43,102 nt of DNA from an uncultured Alphaproteobacteria bacterium. Lineage in GTDB: Bacteria; Pseudomonadota; Alphaproteobacteria; CAAHEQ01; UBA3637. The notes under the pieces were generated by a model. The model was not told where the DNA came from. It saw only the letters and a program-made list of their open reading frames with translations, and made no database searches. Position numbers and translations under genes: made by a program. The DNA is taken from positions 1 to 43,102 of the forward strand of contig CAJOPC010000045.1 of NCBI GenBank assembly GCA_905236245.1, written 5' to 3'. This document shows positions 10,691 to 13,382 of this stretch, piece after piece. Each line of letters opens with the position of its first letter. Position 1 is the stretch's first letter.

Positions 10691-10719
10691 TTGACATTAA
10701 TTCGTCAATACGCTATGCT
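10691..10719 (+). promoter_or_regulatory. Promoter of the thrS leader, predicted leaderless
   Basis: TTGACA (10691-10696), 17 nt, TATGCT (10714-10719). The expected start, 7-8 nt on, is at or beside the ATG of the leader peptide at 10727. Confidence 0.75.
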
Positions 10720-10726
10720 GATTAGC

Positions 10727-10783
10727 ATGAAAAAAGCAAATTGTTTTTATTTATATACAACATGTGTGACAACAACCGCCTAG
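10727..10783 (+). CDS. Threonine-rich leader peptide of thrS
   Basis: An 18-residue ORF reads MKKANCFYLYTTCVTTTA and stops at TAG 10781-10783. Five of the last eight residues are Thr (ACA ACA, then ACA ACA ACC). It lies between a strong promoter and a GC-rich hairpin with a long T tract, and the gene downstream is threonyl-tRNA synthetase. This is the classic layout of ribosome-mediated attenuation, in which scarce Thr-tRNA stalls the ribosome at the Thr codons. There is no ribosome binding site. The start codon coincides with the predicted transcript start, as known for the trpL leader of Sinorhizobium meliloti. The function is inferred from position and codon content. Confidence 0.75.
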   Translation: MKKANCFYLYTTCVTTTA

Positions 10784-10818
10784 GGCGGTCGGTATTTTCT
10801 TTTTTTATTTTTTTTACA
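10775..10818 (+). terminator. Attenuator hairpin in front of thrS
   Basis: ACCGCC (10775-10780) pairs with GGCGGT (10784-10789) around a 3-nt loop made of the leader stop codon TAG. A T-rich stretch (10793-10816) follows. The 5' arm is the last Thr and Ala codons of the leader, so a ribosome standing there would block the hairpin. Confidence 0.65.
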
Positions 10819-10857
10819 ATCACACAATAACAAAATTAATTAGTATAGGAGTATTAC

Positions 10858-12594
10858 ATGAATCAAAATGATTTAAGCACGATGCGGCATAGCGCAGAAC
10901 ACGTTTTGGCCGAAGCAATGTATCACCTCTATCCTGGGGTAAAAATGGCAATGGGCCCTGCTACAAAAGAAGGTTTTTACGGCGATTTTGATTTGCCAGA
11001 AGGAGTAGTTTTGTCTACCGAGGATCTTCCAAAAATTGAAGAAGAAATGAATAAAATTATTGCAACAAGAGTTCCAATGACCAGAAAAGAACTTTCTGTT
11101 GCAGAAGCACGTGATTTGTTTAAAGACAATGAATACAAACAAGATTGGCTTAACGAAATTGAAGCCAGAGGCGAAAAAGTTAGTGTTTATTGGACCGGCG
11201 ATTCCTTCGTTGATTTGTGCCGTGGCCCACACGTTAGTTATGTTTCAGATATTAAAGCTGTTAAGTTATTATCTGTTGCAGGGGCTTATTGGCACGGCGA
11301 CTCCAAAAATAAAATGTTAACCCGTGTTTATGGAACCGCATTTGGATCTAAACAGGAATTGCAAGACTACTTAACCATGTTGGAAGAAGCCAAAAAACGT
11401 GATCACCGCAAACTCGGCAAAGAAATGGATTTATTCCATTTTGAACCGGAATATGCACCAGGTTCTGTCTTTTGGCATGACAAGGGGTATAAAATTTATC
11501 GCAAACTGATTGAGTATATGCGTAAAAAACAAGAAAAGAACGGATATATCGAGGTATGCACCCCGGCTGTTATGGATCGTGTTTTGTGGGAAACGTCCGG
11601 ACACTGGCAAAAATACGGCGAACACAATTATTCTGGCAAAACGGAAGATGGTCGCGTTTTCTGTATCAAACCAATGAACTGTCCCGGTGGCGTCCTTATC
11701 TATGGACAAGGCATTAAATCTTATCGTGATTTGCCTTTACGCATGGCGGAGTTTGGTAAAGTTCACCGTTATGAGGCCAGCGGATCTTTGATGGGGCTTA
11801 TGCGTGTCCGCGAATTTACCCAGGACGATGCTCATATTTTCTGCACGCCGGAACAAATGGAATCCGAATGTATTACGACGCTAAAATTGATTTTAGATAT
11901 TTACAAAGATTTTGGCTTTGAAGATGTTAAAATCTACCTTTCTACGCGTCCAGAAAAACGCATTGGTTCCGATGAAATCTGGGATTTGTCCGAAAAGGCT
12001 TTGGCCAATGCTTTAAAGCACAATAATTATGAATTCGAAATCAATGAAGGTGAAGGCGCTTTTTATGGACCAAAATTGGAATTCATTTTGAAAGATGCTA
12101 TTGGCCGAGAATGGCAATGCGGAACTATTCAAATGGATATGAATTTACCAGAACGCTTTGACATTTCCTATATTGGCGAAGATGGCCAACGCCACAGACC
12201 GGTTATGTTACACCGGGCTTTGTTTGGTTCTATTGAACGCTTTTTGGGAATCCTCATTGAAAATTATGCGGGAAAATTACCTTTATGGTTATCTCCACAA
12301 CAAGTGTTAGTGGCCCCAATTACTTCCGAAATCAATGATTATGCAGAAAGCGTTTTACAACAACTCAAAGACGCAGGCTTATCCGCCCAAGCAGATTTGA
12401 GTAATGAAAAAATCAGCTATAAGATCCGCGAACATTCATTGGAAAAAATTCCGGTCATCATGGTTGTTGGTGCCAAAGAACGTGAAAATGGCACCGTAAC
12501 TATCCGCAGAATCGGTTCTGAAAAGCAGGAAACGCTTCCTTTGAAAGAGTGTATTGATATGCTCGTAAAAGAAGCACAAATGCCTAAGATTTAA
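10858..12594 (+). CDS. thrS: Threonyl-tRNA synthetase lacking the TGS domain
   Basis: Charges tRNA-Thr. The 578-residue protein begins directly with the N2 editing domain: RHSAEHVLAEAM has the H11-x3-H15 pair, and LCRGPHV has the further Cys/His pair. AYWHGDSKNKMLTRVYG follows. The catalytic core has MNCPGG (zinc Cys), HRYEASGSLMGLMRVREFTQDDAHIF (motif 2 region, in part) and MLHRALFGSIERF (motif 3 with zinc His). The C-terminal anticodon-binding domain ends at PKI. Typical ThrRS is about 640 residues, and the first 60 or so (TGS/N1) are missing. GGAG lies 8 nt before the ATG and no in-frame extension is present. MNCPGG replaces the usual MNCPGH. It is controlled by the leader and attenuator upstream and ends at a strong terminator. 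Confidence 0.96.
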   Translation: MNQNDLSTMRHSAEHVLAEAMYHLYPGVKMAMGPATKEGFYGDFDLPEGVVLSTEDLPKIEEEMNKIIATRVPMTRKELSVAEARDLFKDNEYKQDWLNEIEARGEKVSVYWTGDSFVDLCRGPHVSYVSDIKAVKLLSVAGAYWHGDSKNKMLTRVYGTAFGSKQELQDYLTMLEEAKKRDHRKLGKEMDLFHFEPEYAPGSVFWHDKGYKIYRKLIEYMRKKQEKNGYIEVCTPAVMDRVLWETSGHWQKYGEHNYSGKTEDGRVFCIKPMNCPGGVLIYGQGIKSYRDLPLRMAEFGKVHRYEASGSLMGLMRVREFTQDDAHIFCTPEQMESECITTLKLILDIYKDFGFEDVKIYLSTRPEKRIGSDEIWDLSEKALANALKHNNYEFEINEGEGAFYGPKLEFILKDAIGREWQCGTIQMDMNLPERFDISYIGEDGQRHRPVMLHRALFGSIERFLGILIENYAGKLPLWLSPQQVLVAPITSEINDYAESVLQQLKDAGLSAQADLSNEKISYKIREHSLEKIPVIMVVGAKERENGTVTIRRIGSEKQETLPLKECIDMLVKEAQMPKI

Positions 12595-12602
12595 CACATA
12601 CG

Positions 12603-12630
12603 AAAAAGGTCGACTTCGGTCGACCTTTTT
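12603..12630. terminator. Bidirectional terminator between thrS and the DUF1796 gene
   Basis: AAAAAGGTCGAC, a TTCG tetraloop and GTCGACCTTTTT form a long stem with A tract on one side and T tract on the other, so it serves both converging genes. Confidence 0.9.
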
Positions 12631-13382
12631 TATTCTTTCCATTTGCGCTTAAAATCTTTTCGCCACTTTTTGCTCCATATAAAAAGACATGCAAAATGGA
12701 TTAAAAAACTTTTTATACGAATTTGTAATTGCTTTAATAATGGGCGTTTTAAACCATAATTTTTCAAAACAGCTTTTAACTTTCTTTTATTGACAGAATA
12801 TTCGTTTTTCTTGTGCAATTGATAATCAAAAATAACTTTTCGTACATGTGGTGAAATCCAAACATCTTCCCTATTTTTAAAAGGAACATCGTTGCAAAAC
12901 AAATACAACAAATCAACCTTATTTCCAAAGCGCTTATGTAATAACCGCTCCACTTGCAACAACTCTTTATCCGACATTTGTGTTTTATAATCGGGGCGCT
13001 CAATAAAAACAAACAATATATTTTCTGCTGTTTCGGCTTTTTCAATCAACCGATCAATACGACGGCTATATTTAGCTTCAATAATCGGATATTGTTCCTC
13101 AAAGGACTTTCCTTTTTTAAAATCATGATTGTAAACAATCTCTGTCTTTTTATTCAAATAAGCCATACCGTTTACGTTTGGCACTTCATGGGAAAAAATT
13201 AAATCTTCTTTATTAAACCAATTTTTAAAATCGTGAACTAAAATCTCGGTACGACCGACCAAAGTTCCACCAAACAACCAATCAAAAGGGTATGAAAAAT
13301 CTTGTAAATGTTGTGCCCGCAGTGCTGTTGTACAAGGACACGCAGCTCCCAAACTCACAATTAAATCATACTGTTTTTTCAT
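12630..13382 (-). CDS. DUF1796 family, putative papain-like cysteine peptidase
   Basis: I chose ATG 13382 (250 residues, MKKQYDLIVSLGAACPC). A promoter lies just upstream, so the longer TTG reading from 13418 is unlikely. The N-terminal pattern YDLIVSLGAAC...AL...FSYPFDWLFGG matches DUF1796/PF08795, where the Cys in SLG-x-x-C and the later F-D-W are conserved. A His-containing central part (SHEVPN, YNHDFKKG) and LFVFIERPDY follow. The family is predicted to have a papain-like fold, but activity is not shown to my knowledge. The C-terminus (about 215-250) is basic with an amphipathic helix, perhaps for membrane contact. The neighbours give no hint of substrate. It ends in the shared terminator with thrS. 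Confidence 0.75.
   Translation of the reverse strand: MKKQYDLIVSLGAACPCTTALRAQHLQDFSYPFDWLFGGTLVGRTEILVHDFKNWFNKEDLIFSHEVPNVNGMAYLNKKTEIVYNHDFKKGKSFEEQYPIIEAKYSRRIDRLIEKAETAENILFVFIERPDYKTQMSDKELLQVERLLHKRFGNKVDLLYLFCNDVPFKNREDVWISPHVRKVIFDYQLHKKNEYSVNKRKLKAVLKNYGLKRPLLKQLQIRIKSFLIHFACLFIWSKKWRKDFKRKWKE

Follow-up and report, generated by a model that had tools for sequence, protein, structure and literature searches.

A conserved threonine leader peptide and hairpin before TGS-less thrS genes of Alphaproteobacteria, a likely attenuator acting by direct ribosome occlusion

The thrS upstream region and the two synthetase genes

In the window, i.e., the whole stretch of 43,102 nucleotides that was analysed, a promoter is followed by an 18-codon open reading frame (ORF), a hairpin (H1), a U-rich tract, an AGGAG motif and the threonyl-tRNA synthetase (ThrRS) gene thrS, in this order. 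The initial annotation had proposed a consensus promoter, an 18-codon threonine ORF and a hairpin in front of thrS, and this proved correct to the base. The features read from the sequence are:

10691..10696, + strand: -35 hexamer TTGACA of promoter P1, with promoter form and spacing the same in most relatives
10714..10719, + strand: -10 hexamer TATGCT of P1, after a 17-nt spacer
10727..10783, + strand: leader peptide ORF MKKANCFYLYTTCVTTTA with TAG stop, 18 codons, of the leaderless type
10757..10762, + strand: Thr codons 11-12 of the leader, where by footprint geometry a stalled ribosome would fall short of H1
10769..10777, + strand: Thr codons 15-17, putative sensing codons, where a waiting ribosome would cover the 5′ arm of H1 and where the Thr profile of 40 leaders peaks
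10775..10789, + strand: hairpin H1, ACCGCC-TAG-GGCGGT, 6 bp, also found by folding
10795..10815, + strand: U-rich tract behind H1, where intrinsic termination may take place, not kept in most relatives
10847..10851, + strand: AGGAG ribosome-binding site of thrS, unpaired with the leader in predicted folds
10858..12594, + strand: thrS, start ATG at 10858, a 578-aa threonyl-tRNA synthetase with SAD/editing, catalytic and anticodon domains

Promoter P1 (TTGACA-17-TATGCT) agrees with the consensus at 10 of 12 positions. Since its -10 hexamer ends 7 nt before the leader ATG at 10727, the thrS transcript is probably leaderless or nearly so, and of 40 leaders about 30 have a spacing in the range of 6-10 nt, the conservation of which had been put forward for checking. 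The leader MKKANCFYLYTTCVTTTA holds five Thr in its 18 codons, and the five lie among the last eight sense codons, as had been noted. A short ORF rich in cognate codons ahead of a gene is one feature of attenuators of the thr, his and pheM type, and the window has such an ORF.

The stop codon TAG makes up exactly the 3-nt loop of H1, again in agreement with the annotation. The fold energy of H1 is -8.7 kcal/mol, reaching -10.0 kcal/mol with two further pairs (10772-10793). A U-rich tract does follow the hairpin, as claimed, but in the window the sequence CGGTA sits between the 6-bp stem and the T run, and a good terminator geometry depends on formation of the two extra pairs, which place the base at 10793. 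Two larger structures were discarded. The first full fold (z = -3.5) pairs promoter DNA upstream of the start, which is not part of the transcript, and the transcript-only fold has z = -1.55. An outer helix GUGUGA/UCACAC around H1 has counterparts of 5-6 bp by eye in several relatives, but AT-rich DNA should yield such matches by chance, and their place varies.

The thrS start lies about 75 nt after the leader stop. Its product matches the Pfam domains PF07973, PF00587 and PF03129, while the TGS domain (PF02824), present in the N-terminus of a normal-length relative, was searched for in Pfam and is absent. A strong bidirectional terminator hairpin with a U-run was also observed at 12602-12631, between thrS and a converging gene, and suggests that this genome uses ordinary intrinsic terminators.

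The window genome has a second ThrRS of about 423 aa (L057, G000:C30:29000-34500), reduced to the catalytic and anticodon domains, with neither TGS nor editing domain. It is preceded by the leader MLNERNNFSKLFEQNFEKSSVLFRVALTLTTTTTA, closed by a stop codon, and by the hairpin CACCGC-CTAAGC-GCGGTG in the same layout as in the window, with U5 close behind the hairpin. Copies resembling this second ThrRS were observed in G415 and G421. A TGS-containing ThrRS was not found in the 85% complete assembly. Both ThrRS genes of this genome carry the leader, reminiscent of B. subtilis, which has two ThrRS genes, thrS and thrZ. The nearest proteins to the window ThrRS belong to another genus (81%) and another family (73%), whereas the ThrRS of its genus mates share only 44-58% with it, so that its gene was probably acquired by transfer.

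Recurrence of the leader in related genomes

ThrRS was searched in 58 relatives, in 385 genomes of the class and in 40 genomes of one family, giving TGS-containing, TGS-less and catalytic-only forms; among the close relatives, those with a name are MAGs of uncultured Alphaproteobacteria/proteobacteria (SIG52, RUG12900). The upstream regions were read directly, and all were then scanned with a single rule, requiring at least three Thr in the last nine codons and a hairpin of at least four pairs at the stop. Leader and hairpin precede 36 of 44 TGS-less thrS (45 rows, one of which, L077, is not a thrS) and all three catalytic-only genes, including the second ThrRS of the window genome, hence 39/47 altogether, with eight TGS-less genes having no clear leader. 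None of 60 TGS-containing thrS passed the rule, and in a further set of TGS-containing genes a single one did (1/78), the match being a spurious out-of-frame ORF within the upstream coding region. Shuffled upstream regions pass in 0.1-0.5% of cases, and none of 60 dinucleotide shuffles of the window upstream region gave a comparable leader. When four genomes were searched for the leader with a degenerate DNA pattern, nothing useful was returned.

Conservation in relatives had been set beforehand as the test that could refute the annotation, and the annotation stood up to it; the Thr codons are kept, and so is the geometry with the stop in or at the hairpin. The stop lies in the loop in G282 (MFVYSLITTTFTTTTP and stop, hairpin ACCCCT-TAA-AGGGGT), and likewise behind the leaders MSWIVNKTTTRLTTTP of G054, LYYFNNKNILPKTTTP of G185 (with a TTG start), MIYIAQKTTTRTTTTL of G122 and MTVLILYATLTTP of G027. 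In the family f69, with genomes of 0.5-1.1 Mb, the leader peptide typically ends in TTTTTPxGV, and a hairpin CCCC-x-GGGG lies within the last leader codons with the stop directly behind. The arms of H1 vary jointly among relatives (CCCC/GGGG, CCGCC/GGCGG, CGCC/GGCG, AACCC/GGGUU), and all four Thr codons are used in the leaders (ACA 80, ACC 63, ACT 35, ACG 18). The hairpin and the amino acid both appear to be under selection, because the stems change and yet stay paired while the Thr run is kept with any of the four codons, and the latter also argues that translation of the leader matters. A well-conserved thrS attenuator would be added for Alphaproteobacteria.

The leader search was extended to named aminoacyl-tRNA synthetase families. 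Upstream of ileS in family f69 (L204, L245, L246, L249, L251-L253, L258, L263-L267) a conserved Ile leader, MxxxxIIIIx and stop, is followed by the strong intrinsic terminator GGGGCGC..GCGCCC-GTTTTTT with a perfect U6-7, a probable classical attenuator judging by its layout. Ahead of ileS in G027 (L202), the leader MTKMYSMNNIIIIARISG repeats with Ile codons the design of the thrS leaders that have the stop in the loop, its TAA falling within the loop of TAGTGGC-TAAC-AGCCGCTA.

Proposed mechanism, alternatives and loss of the TGS domain

In regard to the way such a leader could act, the position of the Thr codons relative to H1 is informative. The ribosome edge was placed some 12 nt beyond the A-site codon's first base, with a toeprint distance of 15-16 nt from the P-site codon (as in PMC6851288). 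With Thr codons 15-17 in the A site, the leading edge comes to 10781-10787, past the 5′ arm of H1 at 10775-10780, and in constrained folding H1 is lost for stalls at these codons and kept for stalls at codons 11-12. The predicted position of the stalled ribosome in the window overlaps the 5′ arm of H1, which is the mark of direct occlusion of the tlrB type. The earlier claim that a ribosome on the Thr codons would block the 5′ arm is accordingly sound for codons 15-17 but not for codons 11-12. As stalls at the latter leave H1 free, very strong starvation could lower read-through.

The same placement is found across 40 leaders when codons are counted from the first C of the 5′ arm. The Thr fraction does not exceed 0.07 at any offset of -7 and beyond, is 0.07 and 0.15 at -7 and -6, climbs through 0.42, 0.57, 0.75, 0.82 and 0.95 to 1.0 from -5 to 0, and falls to 0/40 at +1; Thr at offset 0 is partly due to the hairpin itself (ACC gives the first C's) and the rule scan required Thr in the last nine codons, so that what is informative in the profile is how steeply it rises from -7 to -1. 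Anatomy, conservation and Thr codons at masking distance are all present in the sequences themselves, and the placement looks as direct occlusion predicts. This lends positive support to the annotation's suggestion of direct masking in place of a classical antiterminator.

We therefore favour, with reasonable though not full confidence, a Thr-sensing, ribosome-mediated attenuator of thrS acting by direct occlusion; the element is real and conserved, and most likely it works in this way. RNA polymerase would start at or beside the leader ATG, and a ribosome would translate the 18-codon leader. With ample Thr-tRNA, it would reach the stop in the loop of H1 and depart, H1 would fold and, in the window, the U tract behind it would stop transcription ahead of thrS. 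With scarce Thr-tRNA, the ribosome would wait at Thr codons 15-17, its leading edge would cover the 5′ arm, H1 would be blocked and thrS transcribed, with no need for a competing antiterminator. The leader would in this manner probably raise ThrRS production at low charged tRNA-Thr. From this layout we infer the leaderless start, the termination at H1 and the response to Thr-tRNA. The leader is minimal, consisting of an almost leaderless start, some 18 codons and a single 6-bp hairpin that encloses the stop codon. It could for this reason be a convenient model in which to study direct occlusion by the ribosome as a mode of attenuation.

The output step is where an alternative deserves most weight. 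The hairpin and T tract that the annotation assigned to an attenuator would suit a terminator in the window but not in most relatives, as they have no U-run. The window thrS and L057 are alone in having a strong U-run, and intrinsic termination at H1 is plausible in these two; in G054 and G185 the U-run is fair. It is absent in family f69 and in G122, although leader and hairpin are kept there; in f69, H1 is followed by a GTAGATTCTATTTGCG-like sequence. Since f69 genomes do place a perfect U6-7 terminator after the ileS leader, their thrS H1 may be no intrinsic terminator, leaving Rho, NusA/NusG or mRNA stability as possibilities. Leader and Thr sensing could be as proposed but with termination helped by Rho or NusG/NusA, or with transcript stability, as the output in place of plain intrinsic termination. 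The factor would then read either H1, which a stalled ribosome opens, or the C-rich stretch of Thr codons, which the same ribosome shields. For reported leaders of Actinobacteria that show no obvious terminator, a role of Rho has been suggested (PMC1262725), and in B. subtilis termination at the weak tlrB terminator increased 4-fold with NusA (PMC6851288). On the other hand, both ThrRS genes of the window genome do have U-rich tracts behind H1, and a model with Rho only leaves the upkeep of H1 by compensating changes unexplained, so for the element as a whole we regard such an output as unlikely, if worth keeping in mind.

In family f69 (L038-L040, L081-L106), an inverted repeat TTGCGn...nCGCA with compensating changes lies 6-9 nt after the leader stop, its left arm 17 nt from (T/A)ATAAT. 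Such an element could be a second promoter or a second RNA hairpin before thrS, and it reads as a second promoter, a reading favoured because L103, which has seemingly lost the leader, keeps the element.

Classical attenuation would require a competing antiterminator overlooked in the folds. It is the standard scheme of amino-acid leaders, and in f69 ileS looks like a case of it, with an MxxxxIIII leader, a spacer and a strong terminator. However, classical attenuators have their sensing codons well upstream of the terminator stem, whereas in the thrS leaders these codons run into it and Thr is most frequent right at the stem; no antiterminator helix was seen in the window folds or by eye in relatives, and we consider this form very improbable. 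Even less credit goes to translational attenuation, as in the erm and cat leaders, in which the leader ribosome would govern access to the ribosome-binding site. The distance of about 75 nt between leader stop and thrS start would allow for it, but the small hairpin in which AGGAG of thrS lies forms locally, with no leader bases, and the motif is essentially open without the leader; leader-dependent sequestration of the site was looked for in the window folds and none was found. Finally, a chance Thr-rich ORF next to an unrelated upstream terminator, conceivable because AT-rich intergenic DNA often contains both hairpins and short ORFs, is the least credible of all and is refuted by conservation: the arrangement is not chance, because it recurs before TGS-less and catalytic-only thrS against 0-1 of 138 TGS-containing genes and a shuffle null of 0.1-0.5%.

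Known RNA elements were rejected as well. Only two tRNAs reach the Rfam gathering score in the window, which leaves no T-box or other known family, and an E. coli-type thrS operator is at odds with a ThrRS without TGS domain and with folds showing no anticodon-like hairpin at the ribosome-binding site.

The presence of the leader before TGS-less ThrRS genes and its absence before TGS-containing ones in the same bacteria suggests a swap between two controls of one essential enzyme. In a tree of 100 rows, no fewer than three changes on starred branches are needed to account for the TGS-less rows, and phylogenetic pairing gives only two independent contrasts of leader and TGS; because of this, the link, although striking in counts (36/44 vs. 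0/60), is weak in independent evidence and no more than suggestive. It is tempting, but speculative, to propose that TGS-less lineages, perhaps no longer able to self-repress their mRNA, rely instead on a Thr leader whose hairpin is subject to direct occlusion, mostly with no U-run and an output other than plain intrinsic termination, and in one family with a second conserved hairpin or promoter element downstream. As a separate observation, the TGS-containing thrS of the window's genus (L066-L073) have a conserved 5′UTR hairpin CAGGC-AGGGGTT-GCCTG, the paired stem of which varies, possibly an E. coli-like operator.

Comparison with known systems

Cognate-codon leaders of aminoacyl-tRNA synthetase genes are known from pheM-pheST of enterobacteria, which serves another amino acid in another lineage and uses competing hairpins. 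Likewise, in bacilli, His leader peptides precede hisS paralogues (PMC2965389), again a synthetase under a cognate-codon leader, with a different amino acid and lineage. In E. coli, thrS expression is also set by need, through a translational operator in which ThrRS binds anticodon-like hairpins in its own mRNA (PMC11088916), whereas the window has a leader peptide and a TGS-less synthetase instead.

In the ilvB leaders of Actinobacteria, regulatory codons overlap the terminator hairpin (PMC1262725), just as the sensing codons run into the stem here. They differ in responding to branched-chain amino acids, in preceding a biosynthetic operon and in belonging to another phylum, and mutated codons in S. 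coelicolor had no effect (PMC1262725).

The initial annotation named no known Thr leader for thrS in a genome of alphaproteobacterial type. For Alphaproteobacteria, no earlier report was found in the openly accessible literature, which misses most subscription journals. Outside them, Streptomyces lividans TK24 is reported to have a leaderless ThrL before thrS, and further leaders before leuS, trpS and alaS (PMC8079986). It is the sole earlier Thr leader on thrS that we found. ThrL is likewise a leaderless mini-ORF with one hairpin, it has no U-rich run, and it is a weak case, with only two Thr codons (MKRVRPFLETTPGFVPAR), described in one genome of another phylum from RNA-seq starts; a stop codon within the hairpin loop is not among the features noted for it (PMC8079986).

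The closest parallel in mechanism is tylosin-induced attenuation of B. subtilis tlrB (yxjB), where a stalled ribosome blocks the terminator and no antiterminator was identified (PMC6851288). As proposed here, the ribosome stalled on the leader itself prevents completion of the hairpin, with no overlapping antiterminator identified, and the weak, factor-helped terminator could be a further likeness to the thrS leader. In contrast, what stalls the tlrB ribosome is a macrolide, at an RYR motif, and not a shortage of charged tRNA, the leader also controls a hairpin that sequesters the Shine-Dalgarno sequence, and the gene is unrelated (PMC6851288). Direct occlusion is already known, from tlrB (PMC6851288), and a leaderless Thr leader on thrS has been reported, from S. 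lividans (PMC8079986).
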